Shown here one piece after another: positions 7,798 through 28,354 of a DNA stretch of 33,966 nt (position 1 is the stretch's first letter; every line of letters begins with the position of its first letter). The DNA is taken from the NCBI GenBank assembly GCA_025462755.1, contig JAOAPF010000277.1:1-33966 (forward strand), given 5' to 3'. Under the pieces are notes generated by a model. The model was given only the letters and a program-made list of their open reading frames with translations. It was not told where the DNA came from and did no database searches. Origin of the DNA: Edaphobacter sp. GTDB lineage: Bacteria > Acidobacteriota > Terriglobia > Terriglobales > Acidobacteriaceae. Made by a program: the position numbers and the translations under genes.

Positions 7798-8694
7798 TTA
7801 CATCAACTCGTCGACGAAGGATTTGGCGATGTCGGCGGGGATGCGGACGTCTTGATGGACGAGGGGGCCCGCCTTCAGGACCGGTTCGGCTTCGTGCGCT
7901 GCGGGCACGTCGGTGCGCTCGAAGAAGAGCCCGATGGGGATCTCATCGCCCCAGAGCAGCGATTTTTCAACGGCCGCCTGAAAGTCGGTGGGATCGTAGG
8001 CTGGATTGTCCTCGAGCTTTTTGACGCGCGGGCGGAACCACTGGAAGGTGTTGTCGTGGTTGTAGGTCACGCATGGGCTGAAGACATCGATAAAGGAGAA
8101 GCCTTTGTGCTGGATGGCTCGCTTGAGCAACTCGGTCAGGTGTTTTTGTTCGGCGCTGAAGCCGCGCGCAACAAAGGTCGCTCCGGCGGCGAGGGCGAGG
8201 GAGATGGGATTGACTGGGGCGTCAACGTTGCCGAAGGGCATGCTCTTGGTCTTCATGCCGATGCGGCTGGTGGGCGAGGTCTGCCCGGTGGTGAGGCCGT
8301 AGATCTGGTTGTCCATCACGATGTAGGTGAGGTCGAGGTTGCGGCGCATGGTATGGACGAAATGGCCGGCGCCGATGCCGAAGCCGTCGCCGTCGCCTCC
8401 TGTGACCAGGACGGTCATGGCGTGATTGGCGAGTTTCATGCCGCTGGCTACGGGGAGCGAGCGGCCGTGAAGCGTGTGCATGCCGTAGGTGTCGATGAAG
8501 CCGGGAAAGTTCGAGGAACATCCGATGCCGCTGATGGTTGCGACTTCATGCTTCTGAATCTGGAGTTCGACCAGCGCCTTTTGCACGGCGGCGAGGACGC
8601 CGAAGTCACCGCATCCTGGGCACCAGTCGGGGTCGACCTTGCCCTTTAGATCGGCCATTACCATCTGCTTGGGAAGTACTGCTTCAGTCGCCAT
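7798..8694 (-). CDS. korB: 2-oxoacid:ferredoxin oxidoreductase, beta subunit
   Basis: This is the catalytic thiamine-diphosphate subunit that oxidatively decarboxylates a 2-oxoacid (probably 2-oxoglutarate) to acyl-CoA while reducing ferredoxin. It has 298 residues. Cluster-binding cysteines are visible at C25 and C28 (W-C-P-G-C-G), C59 (G-I-G-C-S-S) and C208 (F-S-P-C-V-T). The thiamine-diphosphate/Mg site is G-G-D-G-D-G-F-G-I-G at 99-108 with N129. The ATG is preceded by AGAGGA at good spacing. It lies 52 bases downstream of korA, clearly one transcript. The KorB pattern (S-R-x-G, Y-x-H-D-N-T-F-x-W) favours 2-oxoglutarate over pyruvate, but this is not certain from sequence alone. Confidence 0.92.
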   Translation of the reverse strand: MATEAVLPKQMVMADLKGKVDPDWCPGCGDFGVLAAVQKALVELQIQKHEVATISGIGCSSNFPGFIDTYGMHTLHGRSLPVASGMKLANHAMTVLVTGGDGDGFGIGAGHFVHTMRRNLDLTYIVMDNQIYGLTTGQTSPTSRIGMKTKSMPFGNVDAPVNPISLALAAGATFVARGFSAEQKHLTELLKRAIQHKGFSFIDVFSPCVTYNHDNTFQWFRPRVKKLEDNPAYDPTDFQAAVEKSLLWGDEIPIGLFFERTDVPAAHEAEPVLKAGPLVHQDVRIPADIAKSFVDELM

Positions 8695-8746
8695 GGAATC
8701 CTCTCGAATTTTCTAAGATTCTTTTGCTTCTCTCAGATCGAAACTC

Positions 8747-10525: not shown

Positions 10526-10563
10526 AAGGATCATCCCCTGTTCAAGCCGAGACCCACGGGCCC

Positions 10564-10577
10564 AGTGCCTCGGCACT
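10564..10577. promoter_or_regulatory. Short palindrome in the korA-eutB divergent promoter region
   Basis: AGTGCC-TC-GGCACT is a perfect 14-base palindrome about 40 bases upstream of the korA start. A second small inverted repeat, CTCAT-CTA-ATGAG, begins at 10583. Both could be operator sites. No regulator gene is nearby to match them. Confidence 0.3.
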
Positions 10578-10600
10578 AGTGACTCATCTAATGAGCAGGG

Positions 10601-10630
10601 ATTCTACGTTGTTCTGGAAGCGATGGGCAA
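10601..10630 (-). promoter_or_regulatory. Candidate sigma-70 promoter for korAB
   Basis: On the minus strand TTGCCC (10625-10630) and TAGAAT (10601-10606) are separated by 18 bases, about 75 bases before the korA start. The match is acceptable but not strong. Confidence 0.35.
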
Positions 10631-10750
10631 GAGATTTGGAATTTATTGATCGGCCGGTGGATTCATGCTCCGAGGGTTCAACATAATAGACTGCATCCAG
10701 CGGTTCATCGCCCAGGTGATCGCTCCAGTTATTGCCCGCGAGGGAATCTC

Positions 10751-12109
10751 GTGCCTCTGCACCACACCATCGACGGCGTTACGTATGGTTTTCGGGACCT
10801 GAAGGACCTGCTCGCCAAGGCGACCCCGGCGCGGGCCGGCGATGAGCTTGCCGGGATTGCGGCGCGGAGTTCGGTGGAGCGAGTTGCGGCCCAGATGGCC
10901 CTGGCTGATCTGCCCCTGACGGCCTTTCTGAACGAGGCCGTTGTGCCGTATGAGGCCGACGAGGTTACGCGGCTTATCTTTGATACGCACGATGCTTCCG
11001 CGTTTGCTCCGGTCGCGAGTCTTACGGTTGGGGCTTTGCGGGACTGGCTGCTGTCGTATGACGCGACTACTGAATCGCTCGCTGCGCTTGCTCCTGGGTT
11101 GACTCCTGAGATGGCTGCGGCTGTCTCCAAGCTGATGCGGGTGCAGGATCTGGTCGCTGTTGCGCGGAGGATTCGGGTAGTTACGCGGTTTCGGACGACG
11201 GTGGGGCTGGCGGGACGGCTTTCTACACGGCTGCAACCGAATCATCCCACCGATGATCCTGTTGGCATTGCGGCTGCCATTCTTGATGGCTTGCTGCTGG
11301 GATCGGGCGACGCGGTTATTGGGATTAATCCTGTAGCCGATAGCGTGGCGAGCACGAGAAGATTGCTCGAACTTATCGACTCGATTCGGGAACGCTACTC
11401 GATTCCGACACAGAGCTGCGTTCTCGCTCATATCACCACGCAGCTTGCTGCACTGAAACAGGGTGCGCCCATTGACCTCCTGTTCCAGTCTGTCGCTGGA
11501 ACTGAGCGAGCCAATGCTTCGTTCGGCGTCAATCTTGCTCTGCTTGACGAAGCATACCCAGCGGCGCGGGAACTCCGCCGGGGAAATGTGGGGGACAACG
11601 TGATGTACTTCGAGACCGGCCAAGGCAGTGCGCTCTCGGCGAATGCTCATCATGGTGTTGATCAGCAGACCTGTGAGGCGCGTGCGTACGCTGTGGCGCG
11701 CCGCTTCTCTCCTATGCTCGTCAATACTGTCGTCGGTTTTATCGGCCCGGAGTACCTTTACGATGGCAAACAGATTCTTCGCGCTGGGCTGGAGGACCAC
11801 TTTTGCGGCAAACTGCTTGGGCTGCCGATGGGATGTGATGTCTGCTACACCAACCATGCTGAGGCCGATCAGGATGACATGGATACGCTGCTCACTCTGC
11901 TTGGGACAGCGGGGGTCAACTACATTATGGGCGTTCCTGGCGCTGATGATGTCATGCTCCAGTATCAGAGCACGTCGTTCCATGATGCGCTTTACCTTCG
12001 ATCCGCACTTGGCCTCCGTCCAGCTCCGGAGTTTGAAGCGTGGCTCGGAAGCGACATTCCCGGGCGCCTCGCTCTGCCGACGTTAATGCAGTTGCCGGCT
12101 GAAAGTTGA
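10751..12109 (+). CDS. eutB: Ethanolamine ammonia-lyase large subunit
   Basis: The catalytic subunit of the adenosylcobalamin-dependent enzyme that converts ethanolamine to acetaldehyde and ammonia. From GTG 10751 the product is 452 residues, close to the usual length of about 453. Family motifs are clear: F-R-D-L-K-D-L-L-A-K-A near the start, R-x-G-D-x-L-A-G-I-A-A, V-V-P-Y-E-x-D-E-V-T-R, D-A-V-I-G-I-N-P-V-A-D-S, F-E-T-G-Q-G-S-A-L-S-A-N-A-H-H-G-V-D-Q-Q-T-C-E-A-R, F-I-G-P-E-Y-L-Y and M-G-V-P-G-A-D-D-V-M-L. GTG 10751 is chosen because GAGGGAA precedes it and homologues begin just before the F-R-D-L-K-D segment; the frame extends upstream without family similarity. It overlaps the start region of eutC. 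Confidence 0.95.
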   Translation: MPLHHTIDGVTYGFRDLKDLLAKATPARAGDELAGIAARSSVERVAAQMALADLPLTAFLNEAVVPYEADEVTRLIFDTHDASAFAPVASLTVGALRDWLLSYDATTESLAALAPGLTPEMAAAVSKLMRVQDLVAVARRIRVVTRFRTTVGLAGRLSTRLQPNHPTDDPVGIAAAILDGLLLGSGDAVIGINPVADSVASTRRLLELIDSIRERYSIPTQSCVLAHITTQLAALKQGAPIDLLFQSVAGTERANASFGVNLALLDEAYPAARELRRGNVGDNVMYFETGQGSALSANAHHGVDQQTCEARAYAVARRFSPMLVNTVVGFIGPEYLYDGKQILRAGLEDHFCGKLLGLPMGCDVCYTNHAEADQDDMDTLLTLLGTAGVNYIMGVPGADDVMLQYQSTSFHDALYLRSALGLRPAPEFEAWLGSDIPGRLALPTLMQLPAES

Positions 12110-12117
12110 ACGATCCC

Positions 12118-12909
12118 ATGTCATCTTTCATCCCAACTCGCCGTCTCGATCTCCGCGACTTTACGCCCGCGCGGGTGTCCCTGCCTGCTACAGGCCATAG
12201 CATCGCCACGAGTGAAGTGCTTAATTTCCAGCTTGCGCACGCTCAGGCGCGCGACGCGGTCCATGCTGCTTTGCACCTTCCTTCCTTTGCGCAACGCCTC
12301 CGCTCGGAACTCCCCCAGCTTGCTGAAGCCTGTATTCCTGTTCTTCAGCTTCTGAGCAACGCCCCCGATCGCGGTGCTTATCTCCGCCAGCCTATGCTTG
12401 GCAGGACGCTCCACCCCGATTCTGTAGTGCAGCTTCAACCTGTCTCCAGCAGCGACCTCGCCATCATCATCGCCGATGGCCTCTCCGCGCTTGCGGTTGA
12501 GCACCATGCCATTCCTCTGCTTGCACAGCTTCTCCCTCAGCTTCTCGGTGCCGGGTGGACGATCGCTCCAGTTAGCCTGGTGCAACAGGGCCGGGTGGCA
12601 ATTGGGGATCCGATCGGCTTTCGTCTCGGTGCGAGCCTTAGCCTGGTCGTCATCGGCGAACGTCCGGGGCTGTCCTCGCCGGACAGCCTTGGAGCTTATC
12701 TCACCTGGCATCCCCATCCTGATCGCACCGACGCCGACCGCAACTGTCTATCCAACATCCGCGATGGCGGGCTCTCTCCCGAATTCGCGGCGGGCCGTCT
12801 GCTTTGGTATCTGCAGGCTGCCCGCGCGAGGCAAATCACCGGCACTTCGCTTAAGGAGGGGTCTATCGAACTCGAAGCCCCTTCAGCGTCTGCGAAACAG
12901 ACGCCGTGA
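12118..12909 (+). CDS. eutC: Ethanolamine ammonia-lyase small subunit
   Basis: The small subunit that, with EutB, binds adenosylcobalamin and completes the holoenzyme. The product is 263 residues from ATG 12118. It shows D-L-R-D-F-T-P-A-R-V-S-L near the start, L-x-F-Q-L-A-H-A-x-A-R-D-A-V, then S-S-S-D-L-A-I-I-I-A-D-G-L-S-A, G-R-V-A-I-G-D-P-I-G and the V-I-G-E-R-P-G-L-S-S-P-D-S-L-G-A-Y-L-T-W motif. It ends with N-C-x-S-N-I-R-x-G-G-L. A TTG at 12106, overlapping the eutB stop, would add four residues, but neither start has a strong ribosome binding site, so coupling to eutB is likely. No eutA-type reactivase, aldehyde dehydrogenase, permease or shell-protein gene follows. Confidence 0.93.
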   Translation: MSSFIPTRRLDLRDFTPARVSLPATGHSIATSEVLNFQLAHAQARDAVHAALHLPSFAQRLRSELPQLAEACIPVLQLLSNAPDRGAYLRQPMLGRTLHPDSVVQLQPVSSSDLAIIIADGLSALAVEHHAIPLLAQLLPQLLGAGWTIAPVSLVQQGRVAIGDPIGFRLGASLSLVVIGERPGLSSPDSLGAYLTWHPHPDRTDADRNCLSNIRDGGLSPEFAAGRLLWYLQAARARQITGTSLKEGSIELEAPSASAKQTP

Positions 12910-13165
12910 GTATTCTGTTTCGGTTTCGAGATGAAGTTTTTTCTGCCTCACAGCTTGTCCCAGGTCCTCTCGGCCCACGGCAGCATCGGGATCTGTTGCG
13001 CGGATTCACATTGTTGTCGCCGCATCACCCATGGTTTATAGGTCATTTGCCGTACGTAGAGGCCTGTAGGACTGTGCGATGATCAATCCAAAAGCAACGA
13101 AGTGCCGATAGAACAACATGCATTTGGCCGGGCGATTGTATTCATCGCGTCGGCTATGGAGCGAT

Positions 13166-14692
13166 ATGGCAATTACCGTTCTCCGGCAGGATCCGCGTTA
13201 TGACACGCTGAAAAAGGGACATAACCTTCGCTGGCCAGCATCGGAGGCGGATGCTGTGGGGCGAATTGAGGTATGCGAGAGCGCTGAAGACGCGGCCGAG
13301 GCTCTTCAGCGGATTGTGAATGCGGGATTGCGGCCGACGGTGCGCAGCGGTGGACATTGCTACGAAGACTTCTTCGCCAACAATCCGGATGGAGCGATCC
13401 TGGATTTGGGTATGCTCACGCAAACCAATCCTCCAGGCAAAGATGCGCCCTACACGATTGGCGTGGGGACGCAACTTTGGCAGGCCTATGTGGAGCTCTA
13501 TAAACGTTACGGTGTGACGCTTCCTGGTGGGACTTGCGGTTCTGTGGGTGCCGGCGGCCATATCACTGGCGGTGGCTACGGCATGTTGTCGCGACTGCAT
13601 GGTTTGACAGTGGACTGGCTGTCTGCAGTGGAGATTTTGACCGTCGACGCAAAGGGGAAGGTAGTTGCCCGCAGAGTGGACCGGACGCACGACCCTGATT
13701 TATTCCGCGCGTGTCGAGGAGCTGGTGGAGGCAACTTCGGCGTCATCACAAGTTATACGTTCGATAAGCTGCCGCAGCCGCCACGGGAGGTTATGCTGGC
13801 ACACCTCTCCTGGGCGTGGGTCGACATGACGCCGGAGCGCTTTACGAAGATACTGACGACGTTTGGAGATTATTGGGAGACGCGCGGCAAGGACCCGGAT
13901 ACGTGGGGCATGTTTGCTGTTCTGGTCGTGTCTCATCAGGCCGGAGGGCGATTCGGCATGTCGGTGCAGTTCTGCAATCCTGATGGAAGCTGCAAGGACT
14001 TGAGTGTCCTGACGGAGTATCTTGATCGCTTTCAGGATTGCAAGCCTGCCTCAGGTGGTCCTGCTTCCGCTTCGGTCTTGGGCTCCCCGCCGGCGAGTGC
14101 CGGGCAACCGGTGTGCGTCGGGGCGCACACAATGTCACGCTTTGACTGGTTGCTCGCGGTTGAGGCGGATATCGGTGGCGGTAGCAGCTCACGCGCGAAA
14201 TATAAGTCTGCCTATATGAAGCGCGCCTTCACTGCTGAAGATGCGCGGTGTATGTACAAACACATGACGCGGACTATCCCGGGTGTCGATCTGCGCAGTT
14301 CAATGGTGGAGATCGATTCGTATGGTGGAGCCATCAACCGTAAGAATTTGGTGGACGAGACGGCCACAGCGCAGCGGTCATCCGTGATTAAGCTGCAGTA
14401 CCAGACGTATTGGAGAGAAGAGAAGGACGACGATGCGCACCTGACGTGGATTCGTGATTTTTATAGCGACATGTACTCGGGCGGCGACGTGGATTCGAAA
14501 TACAGCAAAACACCCTATCCTGGCGAGCGGTACGATGGGTGCTACATCAACTACCCGGACAAGGATATGCTCGCCTACCCTTTTTGGCCGCAGCTGTACT
14601 ATGGCGACCAGTTGTATGGCTTCCTACAGGGCGTCAAGCGACGTTACGATCCCAACAATATCTTTCACCATGCCATGTCAGTTCGGCCTTGA
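13166..14692 (+). CDS. Berberine-bridge-type FAD-dependent oxidase
   Basis: A 508-residue PCMH-type FAD oxidase. The FAD-binding half (about 40-220) has V-R-S-G-G-H with H64 and G-G-T-C-G-S-V-G with C124. These are the positions used for bicovalent 8alpha-His/6-Cys flavin attachment, and the 60-residue spacing matches glucooligosaccharide oxidase. [10 protein letters not shown] and G-G-G-N-F-G-V-I-T follow. The C-terminal BBE segment has Y-I-N-Y-P-D and Y-Y-G-D-x-L-Y-G-F-L-x-x-V-K-x-x-Y-D-P-N-N-I-F. Such enzymes oxidise sugars, oligosaccharides or alkaloid-like alcohols with O2, producing H2O2; the substrate here is unknown. No signal peptide is visible. ATG 13166 is preceded by GGAG; a longer frame from 13118 has no family similarity. 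Its last codons lie inside a 19-base inverted repeat. Confidence 0.87.
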
Positions 14693-14710: not shown

Positions 14711-16063
14711 CTAGTGCGGCATCTCTTTTGCGGGAGCGTTGTGGGTATCCGGCGCACGGGGGGCAAACGTCGTCCAGCGCGACGCATACTTCGCATTGGG
14801 ATCGAGAGGCTCATTCCATAGCTTCGCTTCCATTCCGTTGAGGTCGTATACGATCTTGCCGTCTTTGATGGTGAGTTCGGCGACAAGCTTCTGTGTGCCA
14901 TCGACGCGCGTGTTCTGCATATCGGTGAAACCGTAGTGACCTTTTTCTACGCTGAGCACGGCTATGTCGGCGACGGAGCCTTCAGAAAGATTGCCCAGGT
15001 CGTCGCGCTTGATTTCGTGGGCCGGGTGAGAGGTCATCTCCGCAACGACCTCCTGTAATGAAAGCCCGATGGCCATCATTTTGCTGGCTACGTTGAGTTC
15101 ATCCTTTGTCGCGCCGTTCATGCTGCCTATGTGGAGGTCGGTGGAGATGGAGTCGGGAATAAATCCGGCCTTCACCATGGGAACGGCGAGCGACCATTTG
15201 AAGCTGCCTCCGCCAGTGCCGGCATCAAAGTAGATGCCGCGCTTGCGGCCTTCAATGAAGGCCTTACTGGGACCGAGGGTCGTCGGGTCCTGCTCGTGGC
15301 GGAGGCCGGAGTACATATGAGTGTAGATGTCGCCGGGGCGCAGCTTTACCGTCAACAGGTCGTAGAGTGGGCGAGTGGGGCGATCGGTGCCGAAGTCGAC
15401 CATGACGGGGATGTTGGCTTTCGTGCCGGCGATGACGGCCTGCTCGACGGGCGTCCACTCAGGGCCGCCGAAGTGTGCGGTCTTGATGCCGACGACGGTT
15501 CCTGGATATTTGAGCGCCATCTGTGCCGTAGCGTCTCCGTCCATATCCGCCATGTTTTGCTCGTACTTATCGCCGCGCATGCCGGAGCCGACGATGTTGA
15601 GCATCGCAAGAACGCGAGTCTTCGAACGATCGATGATTCGCCGCTTGAAGTCTTCGAAGTTCTTCCAGCCGGAGCAGCCTGCGTCGACGACGGTTGTGAC
15701 GCCAACGCGGAAGGTGAAACCATCAGGGGGAACGCTGTTGTCACCCGCATAGGAGTTGCGTTCGCCGGTGCCAGCGTAGACATGGACGTGAATGTCGATG
15801 AGGCCGGGAGTGACGTACAAGCCCTTGGCGTCAATCGTCTTTAGCGCGTCGCTTGAAGGGATATGTTGTGCCACCTTGGCGATCTTGCCATCCTTGATCG
15901 CAACATCCATCACGGAGTCGATGTGATTTTTGGCATCGATGACGTGTCCCTGCTGAAGCAGGAGATCGTAGGCCGGGAGTGCTGTCTGGGCGAAGGCACT
16001 CGAAGCTATTAGAAGAGAGAGTACGGTGCTGCACTGGGCAATATATTTTTGGGGGAGCTTCAT
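14711..16063 (-). CDS. Exported amidohydrolase/deacetylase (dihydroorotase-like)
   Basis: A 450-residue amidohydrolase-superfamily protein with a Sec signal peptide (residues 1-26, ending S-S-A-F-A-Q). The metal centre is visible as H92-V-H94 after G-L-I-D-I, the probable carboxylated lysine K194 in G-I-K-T-A-H, H249 in Y-T-H-M-Y-S-G, and D309 in S-T-D-L-H. At the place where I expect M-V-H-x-G, with its metal-ligand histidine, the sequence reads M-V-D-F-G (D223). The closest family I recognise is the amidohydrolase/deacetylase group found beside SelA-like D-glucosaminate ammonia-lyases in other bacteria, and such a PLP gene is directly upstream here (104-base gap). The expected reaction is removal of an acyl group from an amino-acid-like or sugar-acid substrate, here probably in the periplasm. 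GAGGA precedes the ATG. Confidence 0.85.
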   Translation of the reverse strand: MKLPQKYIAQCSTVLSLLIASSAFAQTALPAYDLLLQQGHVIDAKNHIDSVMDVAIKDGKIAKVAQHIPSSDALKTIDAKGLYVTPGLIDIHVHVYAGTGERNSYAGDNSVPPDGFTFRVGVTTVVDAGCSGWKNFEDFKRRIIDRSKTRVLAMLNIVGSGMRGDKYEQNMADMDGDATAQMALKYPGTVVGIKTAHFGGPEWTPVEQAVIAGTKANIPVMVDFGTDRPTRPLYDLLTVKLRPGDIYTHMYSGLRHEQDPTTLGPSKAFIEGRKRGIYFDAGTGGGSFKWSLAVPMVKAGFIPDSISTDLHIGSMNGATKDELNVASKMMAIGLSLQEVVAEMTSHPAHEIKRDDLGNLSEGSVADIAVLSVEKGHYGFTDMQNTRVDGTQKLVAELTIKDGKIVYDLNGMEAKLWNEPLDPNAKYASRWTTFAPRAPDTHNAPAKEMPH

Positions 16064-16167
16064 TTACGTGGTCCTCAATTGATGCACAACCGACGCGGTT
16101 GATATTTAGATGAATGGATTGCGCGCTGCCGCCGGAGAATATGGCACCAGCGCAGGCACATTTGGGG

Positions 16168-17784
16168 TCAAGCGTGAATTGCCTTCCAGGTGGCGTTTCC
16201 GTACTCTCCCATGCGGACGTTGCCGGTGATGCTGTTGCCCTGAACGACTCCCTTGAAGGTCCAGGGAATCGAGTTTCCTGGAACCTGCATATTGCTGTGA
16301 AGTTCGATCTGGTCGGCGTGAATTATGCCCTTGAGCTTTGCGTTGTAGATCTCACCGTTCTGTGTACCGGTGAGATCGTTGCCGCTTTGCTCGATGGTGA
16401 ACTTCTGCTCGCCGGTACCGCGGGGGTAGTGAATTGTGACGGCCCACGTTCCCTGGACAGGGGCGGGCGTTCCGGATGGAATCACAGGATTCTCGTAGTG
16501 GCCGGGTTTGGTGAGGGCCTCGTAGATAGCGTTCGCTATGATTCGATCTTCACCGGGATCCATCATGTAAGGCATGATGATGACTGAGCTCTTCATCATG
16601 TCGGGCCGGCGACCCACACCTGCATCGATAACGATGCGAGGTGTGCCGGCGTCGAGTCGGGCAACCAGTTCTGTGCCGGTGATCTTTAGGACGTCGGCGT
16701 CCCAGTGAATACGCAGACGCGGAGCCTTGTTGGAAAGATCCTCGGGTTCCAGGTATTCGAAGGTGGTGGAGGGCAGAGGCTTGATACGGGCCTGAATGTT
16801 CTCGAGCCAGGAGCGCCACTCCCGCTGTTCGGCGGCGTGATCGCGCTTGTACCACTGCTGAACGGCGGCGAGCAGGCCCATGGCCTCCTCCTTGCTGCAT
16901 TTGAAGGCGCGGCCATAACAATGATGAGGCGCGGCCTGGTAGTAGGCCGCCTTGCACAGGTCCTTCTGGCCGATCAGCATCCCGGAAGACTGTGGTCCAC
17001 GCAGGCACTTGCCACCGGAATAGCCGACGAGCGTTGCCCCTGCGGCGATGTGGATGTTTGGCGAGATAGGCTCCTCGGCGGCTGCATCAACGAAGACGGG
17101 CACGCCCTTCTCCTTCGCAATGGAGCAGATGTTCGAGATGCTCAGTGGACCTTTTTCTGCTTCAGGGCTGGAAAGGATGTAGATCATGGCTGTGCGTTTC
17201 GAGATCTTGGACCGCAACTCCTCGTCTGAATCGACTTCGACCATCTCGGCGCCTGTCATGCGTATGCCGAAGTCGTACGGGTTTCGCGAGTGTTTTGGGA
17301 TGATGACCTGGTCACGCTCTTTGATGTATGGAAGGGCCTGACAACGCTCTACGTTGGTGCCGGCGATGCACGCCACAGTTGCGAGACAGATGGCGGCTTC
17401 GCATCCGGTGGTGGCGATGCCCCACTCCGCGCCGGTAAGCTTGCCAAGCTGCGCGCCGATTCCATCCATCATCTCGTCGAGCTGAACGAAGTAGTGCGAC
17501 GCCTCGAACATGGCCTGCTTTACCTGCGGAAGAGACCGCGATCCGCTGATGATGGTGAACGTGCCGCGGCCATTGATGAGTGGACGCACGCCGATGCGGG
17601 TAAAGAGATTGTCCTGTTCTGTGCCCTCCTTGGCAGGGACTGTCTTTTGTGTCTGGAGCTCTGCAAGCGCAGCCGAGCCTGCAGCAAAAGGTGAAACAGC
17701 GGTGGCAGCTCCGAGGGCCGAGAGCATTCCGGACTGCTTGAGGACTTCTCGCCTTGACCAGCGCGCTTTGCGAAAGAGGGACAT
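16168..17784 (-). CDS. Tat-exported SelA/DgaE-like PLP enzyme with C-terminal beta domain
   Basis: The protein is 538 residues. The N-terminus has W-S-R-R-E-V-L-K followed by a hydrophobic Ala-rich stretch, a twin-arginine signal. The body (about 60-430) is a fold-type I PLP enzyme of the SelA-like group. D233 in V-F-V-D-A-A-A-E should contact the pyridine nitrogen, and K259 in Y-S-G-G-K-C-L-R-G-P-Q is the Schiff-base lysine. Related cytoplasmic enzymes include DgaE, D-glucosaminate-6-phosphate ammonia-lyase. Residues about 440-538 are an extra, strand-rich domain (G-T-W-A-V-T-I, F-T-I-E-Q-S-G-N-D-L-T-G-T, I-T-G-N-V-R-M-G-E-Y-G) not present in the paralogue at 18346. AAAGGCGAG precedes the ATG. 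Selenocysteine synthesis is unlikely, given the export signal and lack of selB or tRNA-Sec nearby. Confidence 0.82.
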   Translation of the reverse strand: MSLFRKARWSRREVLKQSGMLSALGAATAVSPFAAGSAALAELQTQKTVPAKEGTEQDNLFTRIGVRPLINGRGTFTIISGSRSLPQVKQAMFEASHYFVQLDEMMDGIGAQLGKLTGAEWGIATTGCEAAICLATVACIAGTNVERCQALPYIKERDQVIIPKHSRNPYDFGIRMTGAEMVEVDSDEELRSKISKRTAMIYILSSPEAEKGPLSISNICSIAKEKGVPVFVDAAAEEPISPNIHIAAGATLVGYSGGKCLRGPQSSGMLIGQKDLCKAAYYQAAPHHCYGRAFKCSKEEAMGLLAAVQQWYKRDHAAEQREWRSWLENIQARIKPLPSTTFEYLEPEDLSNKAPRLRIHWDADVLKITGTELVARLDAGTPRIVIDAGVGRRPDMMKSSVIIMPYMMDPGEDRIIANAIYEALTKPGHYENPVIPSGTPAPVQGTWAVTIHYPRGTGEQKFTIEQSGNDLTGTQNGEIYNAKLKGIIHADQIELHSNMQVPGNSIPWTFKGVVQGNSITGNVRMGEYGNATWKAIHA

Positions 17785-17830
17785 GGACTCGCCTTTTCTT
17801 GCTTGGATGTAAATGATGTGCTGCCAATAT

Positions 17831-18316
17831 TTAGATGTAGGCGATGAGGTCCATCTCGACCAGGGAATTGCCGGGGATGCCGCCAGCAGCCGCGATAGTC
17901 GTACGCACGGGAGGAACCTTGCCCCACCGGCCGGCGTAGACCGTGTTCATCTTGGCCCAGTCGTTGATGTCGTTGAGGTAGACGTTGACCTTAAGCACCT
18001 TCTCCATCGACGATCCGGCACCGATGAGATTCTTTTCCAGCTCATCGAGCACATGCTTGGTGTGCTCCTCGATGGTCCCTTGGAAGTGCGCGCCGACACC
18101 GGCGAGGAACAACAGGTTGCCGTACGAGACAGCGCTTGAAAAGAGTGGCGGGGCGGCCGGGGACTGGTCTGAACTCGGCTTCACTGGATATGACTTCTTC
18201 TCCAGCTTGCCGGAGACCTGTGCGGTGGCGGTTTGGGTCAGCATGGCGCCGCCGGTGACAGCTGCTGCGGCCTTGGCCGCGTTCTTCAGTAAACCTCTTC
18301 GGGACTGCTGTTGCAT
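17831..18316 (-). CDS. Tat-exported RidA-family protein (enamine/imine deaminase)
   Basis: RidA-type proteins hydrolyse the reactive enamine/imine intermediates released by PLP enzymes to a keto acid and ammonia. From ATG 18316 (GGAG at good spacing) the product is 161 residues. It opens with Q-S-R-R-G-L-L-K and a hydrophobic Ala/Gly stretch to about residue 33, a Tat-type signal. The YjgF/RidA core has F-S-S-A-V-S-Y-G-N-L-L-F-L-A-G, V-L-K-V-N-V-Y-L-N-D and the active-site arginine in P-P-V-R-T-T-I-A-A, followed by L-V-E-M-D-L-I-A. An upstream in-frame ATG at 18346 lacks a binding site and only adds residues before the signal. It lies between two SelA-like PLP genes (29 and 46 bases away), as a product-processing partner should. 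Confidence 0.87.
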   Translation of the reverse strand: MQQQSRRGLLKNAAKAAAAVTGGAMLTQTATAQVSGKLEKKSYPVKPSSDQSPAAPPLFSSAVSYGNLLFLAGVGAHFQGTIEEHTKHVLDELEKNLIGAGSSMEKVLKVNVYLNDINDWAKMNTVYAGRWGKVPPVRTTIAAAGGIPGNSLVEMDLIAYI

Positions 18317-18345
18317 TCGGGTTACTCCTTTTGGAAAGAGACGCA

Positions 18346-19632
18346 TTATGGTTTGGGATGCATGAGAACTGCACGAACCTGCTGGCCAACGATCTCGGCC
18401 TCGCCCGGTTGCAGCATCCAGGTGCCGATGACGATGGCGTTTTCGGTAGACAGTGTACCGAAGCGGCCGCTTGAACCGGTGGCTGGGTTGAGTTCAATCG
18501 GCGGATGCTGCTGCCTTAAACGTTCCTGCACCTGCTTTGGGCTGATACCGACGGTTGCTGGATCGTAGGTGAGCATGAGATGTGGAACGTGATTCGCCAC
18601 CTCGGGTATGTTGACGCTTGCTTTCAAGGTTGGAACGTCCTTCACCGCCTGCTTGATGATGTCGACGCGGCGCATGTACTCCGCTTCGAGGGCTTCGTCG
18701 TTCTGCTCGAGCAGCCAATCAACGGCGGCGACCATGCCTACGATCTGCTCTTTAGCGACCTTCATACCGCGGCCTACCGCGTCGCTGTTCGGATTGTTGT
18801 TGGCTGCCGCCAGATCAGTGAGATGCTTTTTGCCGAGCAACAGACCGGCGTTCTGCGGTCCGCGGATGCCCTTGCCTCCGGAGAAACAAACAAGGTCATA
18901 GCCCATGCCTGTGTACTTCCAAAGATTTTCGATAGGAGGCATGTCTGCCGCGGCGTCCATGTGACAAGGAACGTTGTGCTGATGCGCAACATCAAGCCAT
19001 ATCTGCCGATCGATCTGGCCACCTTCACCGGAATTGAAGAAGTTCGTCATGATCGTGTTCGGGGTGAAGGCGCGCTTGTAGTCGTCCAGCGTGACCACTT
19101 CGACGATGCGCGCGCCGCAGATCAGCATGGCGTGGTCATACTCGTAGCGGTGCGCCTTTTGCACGATGACCTCATGCTTCATACCGTCGACGTTCTCCGG
19201 AATCTGATCCGGCTTAGTGCCATTTGCCGATGCGATGCAGGCGGCAGTAGCGAGAGTCAGGGCTGCCGACGCTCCGGAAGTGACTACTGCCCCTTCGCAG
19301 CGAAGCTTTTTTGCAATGTACTCGCCGGAGGCTTGTTGCAAGTCTTTGAGGCGGACGGGATGGAGAGCCGCCTGTGCGACGGCTCGCTGCACCTGCGGCG
19401 GCATCAACGCCGCGGTGAGATAAGTGTAGGTGCCGGCCGCATTGATGATTTTTTCGACGCCCAGCTTCGCGTAATAGTCGTCGGAGGAATTCGCCGCCGC
19501 GGGCAGCGCAAATGCCTCCGATGCTGCACCCACTCCAACGATCGGTGCTGTGCCTAAAAGCGCCATCGCCGACTGCGACCAGCGAAGAAAACTCCGCCGT
19601 GTAAAAAGACCGCGCTCACCGCTAGATGACAT
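18346..19632 (-). CDS. Tat-exported SelA/DgaE-like PLP enzyme
   Basis: The protein is 428 residues. The N-terminus reads F-T-R-R-S-F-L-R-W followed by a hydrophobic stretch to A-F-A, an excellent twin-arginine signal. The catalytic body starts near residue 52 (Y-Y-A-K-L-G-V-E-K-I-I-N-A-A-G-T, the typical SelA-like opening). It continues with V-T-S-G-A-S-A-A-L-T-L-A-T-A, D226 in C-H-M-D-A-A-A-D and the Schiff-base lysine K254 in F-S-G-G-K-G-I-R-G-P-Q. The fold is type I PLP; the nearest characterised relatives eliminate ammonia from 2-amino sugar acids. It differs from the paralogue at 16168 in lacking the C-terminal beta domain. AGAGG sits at good spacing before the ATG, and a 16-base palindrome lies just upstream of that. 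Confidence 0.85.
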   Translation of the reverse strand: MSSSGERGLFTRRSFLRWSQSAMALLGTAPIVGVGAASEAFALPAAANSSDDYYAKLGVEKIINAAGTYTYLTAALMPPQVQRAVAQAALHPVRLKDLQQASGEYIAKKLRCEGAVVTSGASAALTLATAACIASANGTKPDQIPENVDGMKHEVIVQKAHRYEYDHAMLICGARIVEVVTLDDYKRAFTPNTIMTNFFNSGEGGQIDRQIWLDVAHQHNVPCHMDAAADMPPIENLWKYTGMGYDLVCFSGGKGIRGPQNAGLLLGKKHLTDLAAANNNPNSDAVGRGMKVAKEQIVGMVAAVDWLLEQNDEALEAEYMRRVDIIKQAVKDVPTLKASVNIPEVANHVPHLMLTYDPATVGISPKQVQERLRQQHPPIELNPATGSSGRFGTLSTENAIVIGTWMLQPGEAEIVGQQVRAVLMHPKP

Positions 19633-19649
19633 CGTAAACCTCTAACTGT

Positions 19650-19665
19650 CTTCCCTTGAGGGAAG
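19650..19665. promoter_or_regulatory. Palindrome upstream of the first PLP gene
   Basis: CTTCCCT-TG-AGGGAAG is a perfect palindrome with 7-base arms, ending 17 bases before the start codon of the 18346-19632 gene and just upstream of its ribosome binding site. It may be an operator or a translation-affecting stem. It lies in the 104-base gap that separates this gene from the RraA-like gene. Confidence 0.35.
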
Positions 19666-19736
19666 TTGAATAAGGACAGGATTGCGTCAATTTCCGCGAC
19701 ACTTACACGTGTTGTGTGGCGAAAGGGATAACCGGT

Positions 19737-20543
19737 TCAAATTCGTCCAAACTGTTTGACCGCCTCCTCGATCGAATGAAATTTTTCAATAAATGGATAC
19801 ATCGAATGTTCGCTATTGTCGAGCTTTTGGGCAAGGACCAGGACGTCGGCAGCACGTTCGCGAGGTACGACGACGACGCCGTCCTGGTCGGCGACGATGA
19901 TGTCATTAGCAGAGACTTTGACGCCATCACAGTCGACCGGCACATTCACACCACCGAAACGGTAGTGCCCCACTGAAGTTGAAGGCACCGGGCCCGTAGC
20001 ATAGACCGGAAAGCCGATCTTCTTGAGCTGCGGCAGATCGCGAACGCCGCCGTCGATGACTGCCCCGGCAAAGCCGCGCGCGAACATCGCGGTACCCATC
20101 AAGCCGCCCATACCGGCAATGTCGGCTCCATCCTCTACCTGCATGACATAGACCGAACCAGGCCCGCCCGAGTCGATCGCCTTGAGCATGCCCGTGAGCG
20201 CGTCGGCGTCATGGTTTTCCTGCTTGACGAGTTTCACCGTGATCGCACTCCCCGCGAATTTCGTAGGGAAGATCGACTGCATGCGATGCGACATGTAGCG
20301 CTTCTCGTGGAGCAGTTGCTCCATGGCATCGGAGACCGAGGCGGCCTCCACGTGCCGGTAAGCGTCGAGCATCGCAGCAGGGTCAGCGATGTACTCGGCA
20401 GCGGTCTTTGGCGTGTCTGCGTGGACGATATGGGTGATGGTGAGAAGCGTTGTACAGACGATGGCGATGGCAATGGCGATCCGTGCTCGGCTCGACGACA
20501 GAATCGGGTTCAATTTCAATGACCTCATGATGACTGAGAGCAT
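19737..20543 (-). CDS. Exported RraA-fold protein (aldolase/decarboxylase-like)
   Basis: Proteins of this fold include HMG/CHA-type class II aldolases, oxaloacetate decarboxylases and the RNase E regulator RraA. The product is 268 residues from ATG 20543. Residues about 22-46 are hydrophobic, ending I-V-H-A-D, a probable Sec signal or anchor, which argues strongly against an RNase E regulator. The core has S-V-S-D-A-M, G-S-A-I-T-V-K, G-x-A-x-x-G-G-L-M-G, and the signature A-V-I-D-G-G-V-R-D-L-P-Q-L with the Arg-Asp pair of the metal/substrate site. D-C-D-G-V-K-V-S-x-N-D-I-I-V-A-D-Q-D-G-V-V-V-V-P follows. None of the possible starts (TTG 20579, ATG 20543, ATG 20528) has a clear binding site. 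In context it is a candidate for the last, C-C cleaving step. Confidence 0.8.
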   Translation of the reverse strand: MLSVIMRSLKLNPILSSSRARIAIAIAIVCTTLLTITHIVHADTPKTAAEYIADPAAMLDAYRHVEAASVSDAMEQLLHEKRYMSHRMQSIFPTKFAGSAITVKLVKQENHDADALTGMLKAIDSGGPGSVYVMQVEDGADIAGMGGLMGTAMFARGFAGAVIDGGVRDLPQLKKIGFPVYATGPVPSTSVGHYRFGGVNVPVDCDGVKVSANDIIVADQDGVVVVPRERAADVLVLAQKLDNSEHSMYPFIEKFHSIEEAVKQFGRI

Positions 20544-20645: not shown

Positions 20646-23600
20646 TTAGAAGATGATCTTGGCCGCGAGTTGGAGCGCACGCGCACCACTGAGCTCACCG
20701 GGAATCTTCTGTACGTCGATGATTGACCCGGCGTTGCCGGTGGGGCTGATTGCGGTGCTGGTCAGGGATGCCGCATTAAGAGTTGGATTGCCACTACCGT
20801 TCGAAGAGTTTGGGTTCGCTGCACTGGGATGATTGAACACGTTGGATGCCTCGGCGCGGAACTGGAACTTTGCCGTCTCCCATATCTGGAAATTCTTGAA
20901 GATGGAGAGGTTGTCATAGGAGAAACCAGGTCCGTGCAAGGTGTTTCTTGACGTATTCCCGAAAGCATAATTGAACGCAGTCGTAGTCGGGACTCCGCCG
21001 ACCGGCACCTGGGTCTGTTGAGGAACCGGAAGCGCATAAGCACTGAGGTCGATACACGAAACAGTCTTTCCATTGGCAGTGTATCCGTTGACTCCGTTGA
21101 CTAAATTCTTCAGACTGCAGTCAGCTTTTGGCTGGTGTACCCAGCTTGGGCGGTCCGTGCCCTGGTCGAGGCCGGAACTGTGATAGCCAAGCGAAACGTT
21201 ATACGGCATACCGGTCTGTAAATTGAGAATGGTGTTGACCTGCCACCCGCCAAGTGTTTCGCGAACAAGCAAATTTTTTCCTTTAAAGGAAGGCAGTTCA
21301 TACGTGAGGACTCCGACAAAACGATGCCGGATGTCCCAGTTGGAGTTCCCATAATCGGCGGCGAGATTGTATTGCTGCGAAGGAACGCCTCCACCGTTGG
21401 AATCCGTTGAGACATCGAGATCGTGAGCCCAGGTATAGCTACCCTGCCCGGAAAGCCCGTGAAGAAGGCGCTGACGGAGGATGAGGCTGAGACCGTTGTA
21501 CTCGGCCCACGCAAAGTTCCTCAAGTCGCGGATGGAGCCAAAGAGCTGGTTCGGGCGAACCAGGCAATTTGCCTGACCGCAACTCCCCGGCGCTGAATTG
21601 AGCGCAATGCTCTTGGGCTGCGAAAAGACGACGCCGGCTACCATCTGCGTTGGCATGTTGGAGTACCAACTCGTGTCCAGGTCCAGGTCATGCGAGCCTA
21701 TGTATTGCGCCTCGGCTGCAGCCCCTCTCCACAGCTCTTGTCCCAGGGAGAGATTCCACTGATAACTGCGCTGCGTTTTGTTAGCGGGATCGTAGGTTAC
21801 CGCGCTCCCATAGGTGCAGGTTGGCGTGCATGTTCCTGTCACCGGCGATGCAGTCGCCTGCCCAGGGGTCGGATTCGTAAACGAGAGCGGATTGGCGGCC
21901 GTGCCCTGCGAGGCGCTGTAGCTGAAATTGGCCCCGAAAGGATAGTTGTTGCTGGTCAGCAGTGTGAAGCTATTGAGTTGGTTCGCGTTGTAATAGAAGC
22001 CAATGCCGCCGCGCAGAACTGTTTTGTCCGTGGCGCGGTAAGCGAAGCCCAAGCGCGGCCCCCAGTTGTCATGCGTCGGGCTGCCGAGTTTTAGCCCCGG
22101 AACTGGAACCCAGGTAGCTGCCGAGTTGGCAGTCGAGACCGGGAGTAGAGCGGTCTGGGCGGCATTCATGATGCGGGTATAGCCGTTGAGACTGTATGGA
22201 ACGGTAGGAAGATCGTAGCGCAGACCGTAGTTCAACGTGAGCTTCGGCGTCGCCTGCCAGTTGTCAAGGACGAAGAAGCCGTCACGCCACTCCGCCACCG
22301 AACCTTTAATGCTGGTGGACGGTGTCACGTCGGTAAAGGGACGACCAAGCGCAAAGTCAGCGCGAGCGTCGCCAGTGATATTGCCGTTGAAAGTAAACTG
22401 TCCGAGCGACAGGTTGGTTGCGATACGCCCTGTATCCAGCTTACGGAATTCAATGCCCGCTATGATGTTGTGCTTGCCGCGGGTGTAGCTGATCTGCTCA
22501 TAGGCGTCGATGGAACGATCGTCCTGGAACCAGTTTGTGCCGTTGTTGCCCACATTCATTCCGGTGGCATTGGTCACGTTGACGTTGGGAATGCCGGGCA
22601 TGTTGTCGGTGGTGTCGAAGTTGAACCCGGGTATGCCAAGGTCAGTTCCGGCGCTTTTGAGCCCGTTGACATACCAGTAGTTGAGCGAGTCGGTTAAGAA
22701 TTGGTTGACGCCAAAGTGAAAGTCATTCACCAGATTGGGCGTAATGATTTGTGTATAGCCGAAGGCATAATTCCGGCTGTTCGCCGGGCCATAACCTCCA
22801 CTTACCGGAACCTGGTTCCCATTGGCATAAGTGAGATCCTGCCAGTGGAAACGACCGAATAGCCTGACGCGCTCGCCAATGTTCTCGTCAACCCGCTCCA
22901 ACGTCTGGGCGATGAAGAGGTTGTTCGGGAAATACACGTTGTTGAGGTTGTTATTGAGGCCGGCGATATTGGGAAGAGGCACATAGGCTTGGTATTTTTT
23001 TGAGATCTGTGCGGCTCCAGTGTTCAGTTGGCTCGCAGGGATGATGTTGCCTGGGTACTTTGCCTGTGTCGCTGGATCCTTGATGCAGATTCCACCAGTG
23101 GCAGCTGAGGCAGCCTGGCCGGCTGGGGTGGGCGTGCATCCGGTCGGGCTCGTGTCCAGGAGGGCCGAGAAATCCCCGATCCTCATGGCCGACGTCATCA
23201 CGGTGGAGGTACCTGGGGACTGGGCCTTCTGGTTCAACTTCTCGTAGGAACCGAAGAAGAAGGTCTTGTTACGTCCGTTGTAGAGCTTCGGAATGATGAC
23301 AGGGCCGCCGAGCGTAAATCCCCACTGGTTGAAATTCAGTGGTGCCTTTTTCGTCGTGGCGGTATCGAAAAAATTGTGCGCGTTAAAGACTGTGTTCTTG
23401 ATGTAGTCGTAGACCACCCCGTGGTATTGATTCGTGCCGCCCTTGCTGACCATATTGATGTGTACACCGAGATACGAGCCATACTGTGCCGTGTAATTGC
23501 CGCTCTGCATCTGCACCTCGGAGATCATGTCCGTACTGGGGCGGGCAGGCGCCACGTTGCCAAGGTTGTTCATGATGGTGACACCATCGAGGGTGAGTTC

Positions 23601-24167
23601 ATTCTGGGTCTCGCGCTGGCCCGCGCCGATGAAGTCCACACCCGGAGGATTGCCGGAGTAGTTGGTCTTAGACCCAATAATCACGTTGGACGAGAGGGCG
23701 GCAATCTCAAGTGCATTATGACCCTGAATCGGCAGATCCTCCACCTGCTTGGGAGGAAACGTCTCTCCCAGGCTTGCATCATCCGTCGAGAGCGGCGGTG
23801 TGCTTGCTGATAAAACGGTCACCGTGTCCGTTGTCGCTCCAATTTTGAGGTTGAAATCGGTACGGATAGATTGGTTGACAGCCACCGGAATGCCAGTCGT
23901 AGTCACCTTACCGAAGCCAGTTTGCTCTACCGTGATGTCATAGGTGCCGCCCTGGATAAACGTGATGGCGTAATATCCCGATTCGTTCGTAGTCGCCGTG
24001 TACTGCAGTTTCGTTGCCTGCTCGACAGCAGTTACTTTCGCTCCGTTCACTGCGCTTCCGGTTGAGTCGAGCACCGTGCCGACGAGTGAGGTATTGTTTG
24101 CGATCTGGCCCAGGAGCAACACAGGGCTCAGCAAGAGTACGAGGCAATAAACCAACGCTTTCTTCAC
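20646..24167 (-). CDS. TonB-dependent receptor with carboxypeptidase-regulatory-like domain
   Basis: An outer-membrane protein of 1173 residues, of the Oar-like class expanded in Acidobacteria. Residues 1-20 are a Sec signal. About 24-105 form a carboxypeptidase regulatory-like (beta-sandwich) domain (S-L-V-G-T-V-L-D-S-T-G-S-A-V-N-G-A-K-V). About 130-240 is the plug region (F-P-P-K-Q-V-E-D-L-P-I-Q-G, L-D-G-V-T-I-M-N-N-L-G). The remainder is a beta-barrel with many aromatic strand ends, such as R-F-H-W-Q-D-L and L-T-L-N-Y-G-L-R-Y-D, finishing K-I-I-F. The start is GTG 24167 with AGGAG seven bases upstream. A large oligosaccharide- or peptidoglycan-like ligand is plausible. It is the first gene after a 418-base gap and leads the block of exported enzymes. 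Confidence 0.87.
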   Translation of the reverse strand: MKKALVYCLVLLLSPVLLLGQIANNTSLVGTVLDSTGSAVNGAKVTAVEQATKLQYTATTNESGYYAITFIQGGTYDITVEQTGFGKVTTTGIPVAVNQSIRTDFNLKIGATTDTVTVLSASTPPLSTDDASLGETFPPKQVEDLPIQGHNALEIAALSSNVIIGSKTNYSGNPPGVDFIGAGQRETQNELTLDGVTIMNNLGNVAPARPSTDMISEVQMQSGNYTAQYGSYLGVHINMVSKGGTNQYHGVVYDYIKNTVFNAHNFFDTATTKKAPLNFNQWGFTLGGPVIIPKLYNGRNKTFFFGSYEKLNQKAQSPGTSTVMTSAMRIGDFSALLDTSPTGCTPTPAGQAASAATGGICIKDPATQAKYPGNIIPASQLNTGAAQISKKYQAYVPLPNIAGLNNNLNNVYFPNNLFIAQTLERVDENIGERVRLFGRFHWQDLTYANGNQVPVSGGYGPANSRNYAFGYTQIITPNLVNDFHFGVNQFLTDSLNYWYVNGLKSAGTDLGIPGFNFDTTDNMPGIPNVNVTNATGMNVGNNGTNWFQDDRSIDAYEQISYTRGKHNIIAGIEFRKLDTGRIATNLSLGQFTFNGNITGDARADFALGRPFTDVTPSTSIKGSVAEWRDGFFVLDNWQATPKLTLNYGLRYDLPTVPYSLNGYTRIMNAAQTALLPVSTANSAATWVPVPGLKLGSPTHDNWGPRLGFAYRATDKTVLRGGIGFYYNANQLNSFTLLTSNNYPFGANFSYSASQGTAANPLSFTNPTPGQATASPVTGTCTPTCTYGSAVTYDPANKTQRSYQWNLSLGQELWRGAAAEAQYIGSHDLDLDTSWYSNMPTQMVAGVVFSQPKSIALNSAPGSCGQANCLVRPNQLFGSIRDLRNFAWAEYNGLSLILRQRLLHGLSGQGSYTWAHDLDVSTDSNGGGVPSQQYNLAADYGNSNWDIRHRFVGVLTYELPSFKGKNLLVRETLGGWQVNTILNLQTGMPYNVSLGYHSSGLDQGTDRPSWVHQPKADCSLKNLVNGVNGYTANGKTVSCIDLSAYALPVPQQTQVPVGGVPTTTAFNYAFGNTSRNTLHGPGFSYDNLSIFKNFQIWETAKFQFRAEASNVFNHPSAANPNSSNGSGNPTLNAASLTSTAISPTGNAGSIIDVQKIPGELSGARALQLAAKIIF

Positions 24168-24585: not shown

Positions 24586-25209
24586 CTACTCAAGATGGAC
24601 AATACCGCGTTGCAGGGCGTAAATCGTGGCCTGGGTGCGGTCGCGGGCCCCCATCTTGTCGAGCACCGAGCTCACATGAATCCGGACGGTCTTCTCCGCA
24701 ATATGGAGGTCCTCAGCGATCTCGCGGTTGCTCCGTCCCTGCGTAATACAAGCCAGAACCTCAGTTTCACGCGGTGTAAGTTCAACGGTTGGCATGCGTT
24801 CGGCCAATCGATCGAGAGCGAGGTGGGGAAGATAACGCAGCCCGCGATCGACATTCTGAATGGCGTTTAGAAGCTCCTCCCCACTGGCATCCTTGGTGAG
24901 ATAGGCCATCGCTCCGCTGCGTACGGCGCGGTAGATGTCTTCACTTCCCTGATAGTTCGAGAGCACTACGATGCGGGCGTTGGGAAATTCCTTGCGCAGC
25001 TGAATGATGACGTCAAAACCGCTCACCCGCGGCAGGCGAAGGTCGAGTACAACGACGTCTGGCCGCAATGTGCGGTACATCGTCATGCCAAGCTCTCCGT
25101 CGCCAGCCTCTCCTACGATGCGGATCTGGGGGTGGCCGGAGAGAACGGAATGGAGGGCCATGCGCGCTAGAAAGTGGTCCTCTATGAGAAGAACGCTGAT
25201 CTGCTTCAT
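24586..25209 (-). CDS. NarL/FixJ-type response regulator
   Basis: A two-domain cytoplasmic response regulator of 207 residues. The receiver (about 1-120) starts V-L-L-I-E-D-H and has the phosphorylatable D56 in V-V-L-D-L-R-L-P. The switch serine is in V-L-S-N-Y, and the lysine in Y-L-T-K-D. The C-terminal LuxR-type helix-turn-helix (about 144-207) reads L-T-P-R-E-T-E-V-L then S-N-R-E-I-A-E-D-L-H-I-A-E-K-T-V-R-I-H-V. ATG 25209 is chosen because it overlaps the kinase stop codon as ATGA, a classic translational coupling; an in-frame ATG four codons upstream is also possible. It pairs with the kinase at 25206-28262 and probably controls the adjacent receptor/enzyme block. Confidence 0.93.
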   Translation of the reverse strand: MKQISVLLIEDHFLARMALHSVLSGHPQIRIVGEAGDGELGMTMYRTLRPDVVVLDLRLPRVSGFDVIIQLRKEFPNARIVVLSNYQGSEDIYRAVRSGAMAYLTKDASGEELLNAIQNVDRGLRYLPHLALDRLAERMPTVELTPRETEVLACITQGRSNREIAEDLHIAEKTVRIHVSSVLDKMGARDRTQATIYALQRGIVHLE

Positions 25210-28262: not shown

Positions 28263-28354
28263 CGCCCATCCAGCAGCGCGTGTGTTCGCGGGACAGGGTT
28301 TCATGGTCACAGACCGGGTGTCATTAACGAATCATATATTTCGACTAGCCGCAT

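Follow-up and report, generated by a model that had tools for sequence, protein, structure and literature searches.

The stretch analysed here, called the window below, comprises positions 1-33,966 of contig JAOAPF010000277.1 (GCA_025462755.1) from Edaphobacter sp. (Acidobacteriota; Acidobacteriaceae), and the subject of this work is a set of five genes on its minus strand between positions 14711 and 20543. In order of transcription they encode an RraA-fold protein (19737-20543), SelA1, a DgaE-like fold-type I enzyme dependent on pyridoxal phosphate (PLP; 18346-19632), RidA (17831-18346), SelA2, a second DgaE-like PLP enzyme (16168-17784), and an amidohydrolase of the EF0837/PRK09237 type (14711-16063). 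All five open reading frames (ORFs) were found to be real and exactly placed. SelA1 and RidA overlap by one base and the remaining gaps are 46-104 bases, as in the initial annotation, which was made from the sequence alone and described five co-directional genes with short gaps; its family assignments (two SelA/DgaE-like proteins, RidA, an RraA-fold protein and an amidohydrolase) agree with both Pfam and NCBIfam. The limits of the set are the stop codon of the amidohydrolase at 14711 and the ATG of RraA at 20543. The ORF list begins the latter gene at a TTG codon (20579); the start picked by rule in a close relative (locus L033) agrees with the ATG.

Export signals were called by a home-made rule, which takes a twin-arginine (RR) motif together with a hydrophobic stretch as a signal for twin-arginine translocation (Tat), and otherwise looks for Sec-like features. 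Signals of export type were found on all five proteins. SelA1 (TRRSFLRW, 19507-19632), RidA (SRRGLLKN, 18218-18346) and SelA2 (SRREVLKQ, 17662-17784) carry the Tat type, while RraA (about 20415-20543) and the amidohydrolase (15986-16063) carry the Sec-like type, which bears out the earlier claim of signals on all five members and twin-arginine motifs on three. TatC is encoded in the Edaphobacter genome, and each of the three Tat candidates has the RR motif and hydrophobic region of a Tat substrate. Relatives were collected by a scan of the genome collection, where 132 pattern matches gave 104 relatives; the analyses use the best 80 of these 104 loci, and signals were counted for one ORF per locus after score floors had been applied. 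Tat signals were called in 72 of 80 SelA1 orthologues (seven without signal, one without a start found), in 32/32 RidA and in 31/33 SelA2 orthologues, and R12 and R13 of SelA1 were nearly invariant among 27 aligned rows. Orthologues of RraA were called Sec in 25 of 29 cases and Tat in three, with no start found in one; for the amidohydrolase the figures were 30 Sec, three Tat and three without signal among 36. Since the same rule gave 41 Tat and 181 Sec calls among 517 unrelated genes, the Tat calls greatly exceed the background, while support for the Sec calls comes mainly from their conservation. The rule thus separates Tat well and Sec poorly, and it slipped by calling a Gfo/Idh-type protein Sec and by missing the RraA of Granulicella tundricola at its annotated start. 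Outside the Acidobacteriota, 20 of 21 PLP relatives had no signal at their given starts. The remaining one, from Aminobacter, was called Tat, probably falsely, because its start aligns with those of the other proteins. The partners tested from non-acidobacterial clusters (four amidohydrolases and eight RidA proteins) were all without signal. At the level of sequence, export of the set is therefore regarded as well supported. An exported RidA is not unique to the cluster: among nine RidA-family matches in the same genome, judged by eye, two were Tat (in the window and on contig C251), one was Sec-like (contig C516), at least three had no signal and three were left without a call. The set on contig C251 (L151:98-4763) consists of a Tat lactonase, a Tat RidA and a Tat SelA3, and sits behind the apparent end of a TonB-type protein; both the signals and this end were read by eye.

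The cluster is conserved in related genomes, as the initial annotation had it. Loci with a SelA1 score of at least 580 were treated as close (n=29; two of them sit in one Terriglobus roseus genome) and the 51 lower-scoring ones as distant, and RraA, RidA, SelA2 and the amidohydrolase were counted as partners when within 5 kb of SelA1. Among the close loci 14 have all four partners, ten have three, four have one and one has none, so that at least three partners are kept in 24 of 29. A SelA1-like match at 1e-30 was found in 30 of 297 genomes of the phylum, own genome included. Some distant loci have other neighbours within 9 kb of SelA1. Judged on Pfam-tested members, nine loci hold a cluster of pyrroloquinoline quinone (PQQ) dehydrogenases, some of which look like cytochrome-type pieces, and six hold a cluster of SMP-30 gluconolactonases; a PIG-L deacetylase cluster, with Tat called by rule on every member, occurs in six. 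One SelA1 locus (L092:4587-6716) encodes three RidA domains fused to an SMP-30 gluconolactonase, with a Sec-like start.

The PLP-binding lysine, K254 of SelA1 in the motif SGGK (18871-18873), is invariant in the 27 aligned rows and was present in 80/80 SelA1 and 33/33 SelA2 loci, as were both lysines of a GRxxKxxKE motif. Other residues of the family are lost. In DGL the phosphate of the substrate is bound by Arg-301, Arg-332 and Arg-346, according to the available part of the source (PMC9529869). The corresponding columns, located through the Klebsiella protein with its three identically spaced Arg residues, hold His (79/80), Asn (78/80) and Trp or Phe (79/80) in SelA1, with Arg in 0/80, as would be expected for an unphosphorylated substrate; in SelA2 an equivalent of Arg-301 is present in 10/33 rows and Arg never occurs at the other two. 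None of the 113 rows has the pair His-162/163 at the aligned columns, which hold a gap in 80/80 SelA1 rows and Gly, Ser, Asn or Ala and Pro (with one Glu) in the 33 SelA2 rows, although some His lies within six columns in 29 of 80 SelA1 rows and in one of 33 SelA2 rows. Among 26 diverse aligned proteins the equivalent of His-163 was kept in 13, lost in 12 and unclear in one. A tree of 61 rows, made by a quick method and rooted at midpoint, places 37 of 39 RR-labelled rows in one group of 40 together with three Sinorhizobium rows (Shimodaira-Hasegawa-like approximate likelihood ratio test 93); cytoplasmic DgaE and the remaining proteobacterial rows fall outside this group. The RR label required four changes on the tree against a shuffled mean of 18.2; it comes from a crude motif search with starts left unchecked, and the label on Aminobacter is probably false. 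As for Sinorhizobium, one plasmid (L146:2228-8318) carries a DgaE/SelA-like protein, likely a biosynthetic relative, in a phosphonate-like cluster with phosphoenolpyruvate mutase, and a second record has a relative beside methyltransferases.

The structure model of SelA1 (mean predicted local distance difference test score, pLDDT, 79.8) matched Cap15 best (8t7j, E 2.6e-24), then DGL (7lc0, E 7.8e-24) and then SelA. The model of SelA2 was weaker (mean pLDDT 63.1) and had the same two top matches; because its PLP domain was weakly modelled, only these matches and the C-terminal barrel were used. This eight-stranded beta domain (16171-16464) gave no other match in the genome; a GEYG..W motif recurs in it.

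RidA scores 69.4 bits with PF01042, above the gathering threshold of 27.3, while its score with the archetype family TIGR00004 (65.6) lies below the cut-off of 106.25. The motif P-x-R...E, whose Arg and Glu we take to be the catalytic residues, was found in the 48 best-scoring RidA-type ORFs. Likewise RraA has 131.7 bits with PF03737 (threshold 24.5), and falls below the equivalog cut-offs of TIGR02798 (91.9 against 304.5) and NF006731 (104.1 against 179). Its Arg-Asp motif DGGVRD (20037-20042), presumably involved in metal binding, aligns with that of the RraA-fold aldolase 3noj, and the form DGx[V/I/A]RD occurs in 40 of 42 RraA-type ORFs. Contig C509 of the same genome (L189:689-4093) bears another RraA-like gene, its start Sec-like when judged by eye, convergent with a gene for GH20 hexosaminidase. 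The amidohydrolase exceeds the cut-off of NF006689 (407 against 371) and not that of TIGR03583 (211.2 against 432.15). Its metal site departs from the pattern of HxH, Lys, His of beta5, His and Asp: the beta5 His is replaced by Asp in every acidobacterial row (Asp223 in the window, 15395-15397). The other ligands are kept wherever the row covers them, one row lacking the HxH region, and the beta5 His is present in the four cytoplasmic relatives aligned, from Klebsiella, Bartonella, Enterococcus and Aminobacter.

The extent of the unit was probed with eight more queries from the window (TonB, RR, HK, MFS, GFO, BBE, EutB and EutC). Five genes had been described as the cluster, and these are in place, but the unit turned out to be larger. 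On the same minus strand it continues upstream with a TonB/Oar-like outer-membrane protein with CarboxypepD_reg and OMP_b-brl_4 domains and a Sec-like signal (20646-24167), a LuxR-type response regulator (24586-25221), an adjoining Reg_prop/Y_Y_Y sensor histidine kinase (25206-28310), both assigned by Pfam, and an MFS carrier (28379-29689; PF07690) nearest to the D-galactonate type, at 205 bits with TIGR00893, below the cut-off of 395. Carrier, kinase and regulator recur at the loci of relatives, some of which have two additions, a lactonase that often bears a Tat signal and an oxidase dependent on flavin adenine dinucleotide (FAD) and without signal. Granulicella tundricola carries the cluster on plasmid pACIX902, where the annotation gives MFS, kinase, regulator and a carboxypeptidase-regulatory-like protein in the upstream part and then, in the same direction, RraA, PLP, RidA, PLP, amidohydrolase, lactonase and BBE; genes for GH125, fucosidase and beta-galactosidase are nearby. 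Downstream of the five genes in the window lies a convergent BBE-type FAD oxidase (13118-14692, plus strand) without export signal, followed, according to Pfam, by eutC and eutB. The oxidase adjoins the module, and is co-directional with it in some relatives. It has the pair of His and Cys motifs which we assume to mark carbohydrate oxidases with bicovalent FAD. The ethanolamine ammonia-lyase genes eutB/eutC (10646-12909), which might have belonged to an ammonia theme, were excluded from the unit, because they were not seen at relatives' loci. They adjoin two subunits of a 2-oxoacid:ferredoxin oxidoreductase (7798-12909 together), and no microcompartment family was found among the window ORFs scanned with Pfam. 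Scans for promoters and terminators gave sites no commoner than in shuffled sequence.

What can be read from the sequence are the families, the export-type signals, the PLP lysine, the Arg and Glu of RidA, the Arg-Asp motif of RraA and the conserved neighbourhood. From these we infer the location in the living cell, the substrate, the order of steps, the step of RraA, the direction of the MFS carrier and the reason for two PLP paralogues. The interpretation which we hold to be on balance probable is a catabolic unit with its soluble enzymes in the periplasm, where amino-sugar lactones or N-acyl aldonates would be converted to 2-keto-3-deoxy acids and ammonia. The lactonases, dehydrogenases and PIG-L deacetylases, the RidA fusion, the set on contig C251 and the contexts of the dga, alphaproteobacterial and haloarchaeal relatives treated below together point to amino-sugar lactones and aldonates. 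The substrates would be D-glucosaminate or related 2-amino-2-deoxyaldonates and their N-acyl forms, entering through the TonB-type outer-membrane protein, and aldonates may be supplied by a dehydrogenase or oxidase and a lactonase such as are present in relatives. The amidohydrolase would take off the N-acyl group, SelA1 and/or SelA2 would eliminate water and ammonia by PLP catalysis, and RidA would turn the resulting enamine or imine into the 2-keto-3-deoxy acid. This could be cleaved to pyruvate and an aldehyde by the RraA-fold enzyme, or be imported by the MFS carrier for a cytoplasmic Entner-Doudoroff route; an aldolase for 2-keto-3-deoxy-6-phosphogluconate (KDPG) is encoded in the genome. 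The carrier is likely to serve in uptake of product or substrate across the inner membrane. If the interpretation holds, PLP catalysis outside the cytoplasm would free the nitrogen of amino sugars (from chitin, peptidoglycan or glycoproteins) in soil Acidobacteriota, a step known inside cells in the pathways compared here. Soil metabolism would gain an extra periplasmic route for carbon and nitrogen, a function would fall to proteins whose annotation today goes no further than class V aminotransferase-like or PLP-dependent transferase, and the system would be a natural setting in which to test why certain PLP lyases depend on RidA.

Several observations weigh against this periplasmic amino-sugar pathway. 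Neither PLP enzyme is DgaE proper, whether judged on NCBIfam cut-offs or on the key His and Arg positions: with the DgaE family TIGR01437 SelA1 scores 161 and SelA2 153.1 bits (cut-off 385.3), and with a second DgaE family 130.5 and 138.4 (cut-off 600). On this point the initial annotation, which spoke of SelA/DgaE-like enzymes, is corrected. Most of the lower-scoring SelA1 relatives are without partners: among the 51 distant loci, some of which are on short contigs, one has four, four have three, 12 have one and 34 have none within 5 kb. The window's module has no lactonase and one was seen on contig C251, the genome not having been searched for others; genes of the lactonase clusters lack a signal in 7 of 23 cases. 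No RraA was found in the stretches examined around the cytoplasmic counterparts. The best fold match of both PLP enzymes is an oxygen-using enzyme, and the BBE oxidase lacks a signal in 9/9 cases and in the Granulicella tundricola protein. Without a signal the oxidase is a poor fit for supplying lactone in the periplasm, and its role as a periplasmic first step is doubted; by its motifs and its place in relatives it is kept as a candidate for the pathway.

Chemistry of the DgaE type is beta-elimination from a D-amino acid in the part of PMC9529869 available, and the exported PLP enzymes might accordingly be ammonia-lyases for beta-hydroxy-D-amino acids or N-acyl-D-amino acids, of the Ser/Thr type and derived from peptidoglycan or soil peptides, rather than for sugar acids. 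The proteobacterial cassettes hold ABC transporters and not a sugar phosphotransferase system (PTS), and the N-acetylglucosaminate deacetylase OngB is close to D-aminoacylases, as far as the excerpt of PMC12017989 goes, both of which suit amino acids as well. The neighbourhoods, however, contain lactonases, glucose and PQQ dehydrogenases, PIG-L deacetylases and glycosidases, a RidA is fused to gluconolactonase and the MFS carrier is nearest to a galactonate type, so we consider amino acids an unlikely substrate, albeit one to be kept in mind. Lower still do we place Cap15-like activity, in which SelA1 and/or SelA2 would be oxidases or decarboxylases using O2 and PLP to convert a beta-hydroxy-amino acid to an amide or a shortened acid. 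It is named because Cap15 is oxygen-using and tops the fold matches of both models. Cap15 is a PLP monooxygenase-decarboxylase which needs the lysine pair K262 and K265, according to the accessible text of PMC6411801; counted on the alignment, these fall in the GRxxKxxKE motif, both lysines of which are conserved throughout SelA1 and SelA2, and PvdN sets the example of a periplasmic oxygen-using PLP enzyme. The pair is also present in DgaE proper and is therefore not discriminating, DGL follows closely behind Cap15 among the fold matches, and the steady occurrence of RidA beside the enzymes suits a lyase that releases an enamine.

It might finally be argued that the N-terminal stretches are non-functional or mere anchors and that the enzymes are cytoplasmic as in Klebsiella, given that the home-made rule called the Gfo/Idh-type protein and about a third of the background genes Sec, the Aminobacter protein Tat, and missed one RraA. 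Against this stand the RR motifs with hydrophobic stretches, at frequencies well beyond those in the unrelated genes, and the missing signals on nearly all non-acidobacterial PLP relatives and on all their amidohydrolase and RidA partners tested, and we find a cytoplasmic location very improbable. Within the periplasmic pathway, the reason for export may be the enamine itself. The H163A mutant of DGL is fully active and releases the enamine, and its authors name RidA, in the portion of the paper at hand (PMC9529869). With the protonating His lost, the DgaE-like clade would therefore release free enamine, and folded export together with its own RidA would confine the enamine to the periplasm, where it would be made and destroyed away from cytoplasmic PLP enzymes. 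We put this forward tentatively, as possible and somewhat doubtful. Klebsiella, Bartonella and Enterococcus DgaE keep His-163 and have no RidA in the stretch examined, and the stretch from Niallia carries no annotation; yet nine alpha- and betaproteobacterial relatives keep it and adjoin RidA, and haloarchaeal relatives lack it and carry no signal. Loss of His-163 alone is thus not a clean reason for a RidA partner.

Among the counterparts, the cytoplasmic dga clusters bear on the parallel with the D-glucosaminate route drawn in the initial annotation, and the parallel was sustained. In 3/3 clusters examined an amidohydrolase of the same EF0837-type family lies side by side with DgaE, as in the window: Klebsiella has amidohydrolase, DgaE, KDPG aldolase and lactonase, Bartonella the first three and Enterococcus the first two. 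The Klebsiella lactonase (L145:7788-8942) has a Sec-like signal, and the neighbouring DgaE and amidohydrolase have none. These clusters differ from the window by a substrate phosphorylated by the PTS, by DgaE and amidohydrolase without signal, by His-163 and, in Klebsiella, by the phosphate Arg cluster, whereas the window has export signals, two PLP paralogues, RidA, RraA and key residues lost; no RidA was found in the three dga stretches. RidA joins the amidohydrolase and a DgaE-like protein on five alphaproteobacterial plasmids, from Aureimonas, Paracoccus, Sagittula, Aminobacter and Palleronia, so that the three families stand together as in the window. These cassettes, unlike the window, keep the HH motif, have ABC transporters and show no credible signal on PLP enzymes, RidA or the one amidohydrolase protein tested; neither RraA nor a second PLP paralogue was seen in the records examined. 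Two Rhizobium records, Thalassospira and Paraburkholderia have RidA and a DgaE-like protein, with no such amidohydrolase in the stretch examined. Haloarchaeal relatives resemble the window in the lost HH motif, in the SGGK-RGPQ region and in a context of amino-sugar oxidation: Haladaptatus and two Halorussus loci, on plasmids, combine PIG-L, a DgaE-like protein, glucose 1-dehydrogenase and Rid/RutC, and Natronococcus and Halomontanus have heparinases beside the DgaE-like gene, with no Rid within the stretch examined. They differ in that the five PLP enzymes tested had no signal and in that the published prediction has a phosphorylated intermediate; in the excerpt seen, that prediction is of a glucosaminate route in Natrarchaeobius, where chitinase clusters contain a homologue of DgaE (PMC12343721).

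Another close counterpart is the ong oxidative chitin pathway of Pseudoalteromonas, in which OngB, OngC, OngD/RidA and KdgK act and deacetylation and deamination lead to 2-keto-3-deoxygluconate (KDG), the RidA gene being required for growth on N-acetylglucosaminate, as given in the available part of PMC9537276. Deacetylation, deamination and RidA encoded together, TonB-type import and an unphosphorylated substrate are common to both; within the same partial sources, the ong route is cytoplasmic and uses enzymes of other families. OngB is a deacetylase of the D-aminoacylase type with a Cys metal ligand, and the window amidohydrolase, with HxH and Lys ligands, is not of this subtype V with its Cys/His/His site (PMC12017989, in part). 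Of the periplasmic interpretation given in the initial annotation, the signals, the conservation and the dga parallel stand; export of PLP enzymes as such has experimental precedent. PvdN and PtaA of Pseudomonas are exported by Tat, folded with cofactor, and the consulted part of the source (PMC6206403) has them in siderophore tailoring, with another reaction and context. Nothing on a DgaE-like lyase or route that is exported came up in a search of the open-licence literature, nor did a paper on an RraA-type aldolase for KDG. What appears to be new, judging from the N-termini, is the export of amino-sugar-acid enzymes, PLP lyases and RidA among them, the known versions of the route being cytoplasmic.

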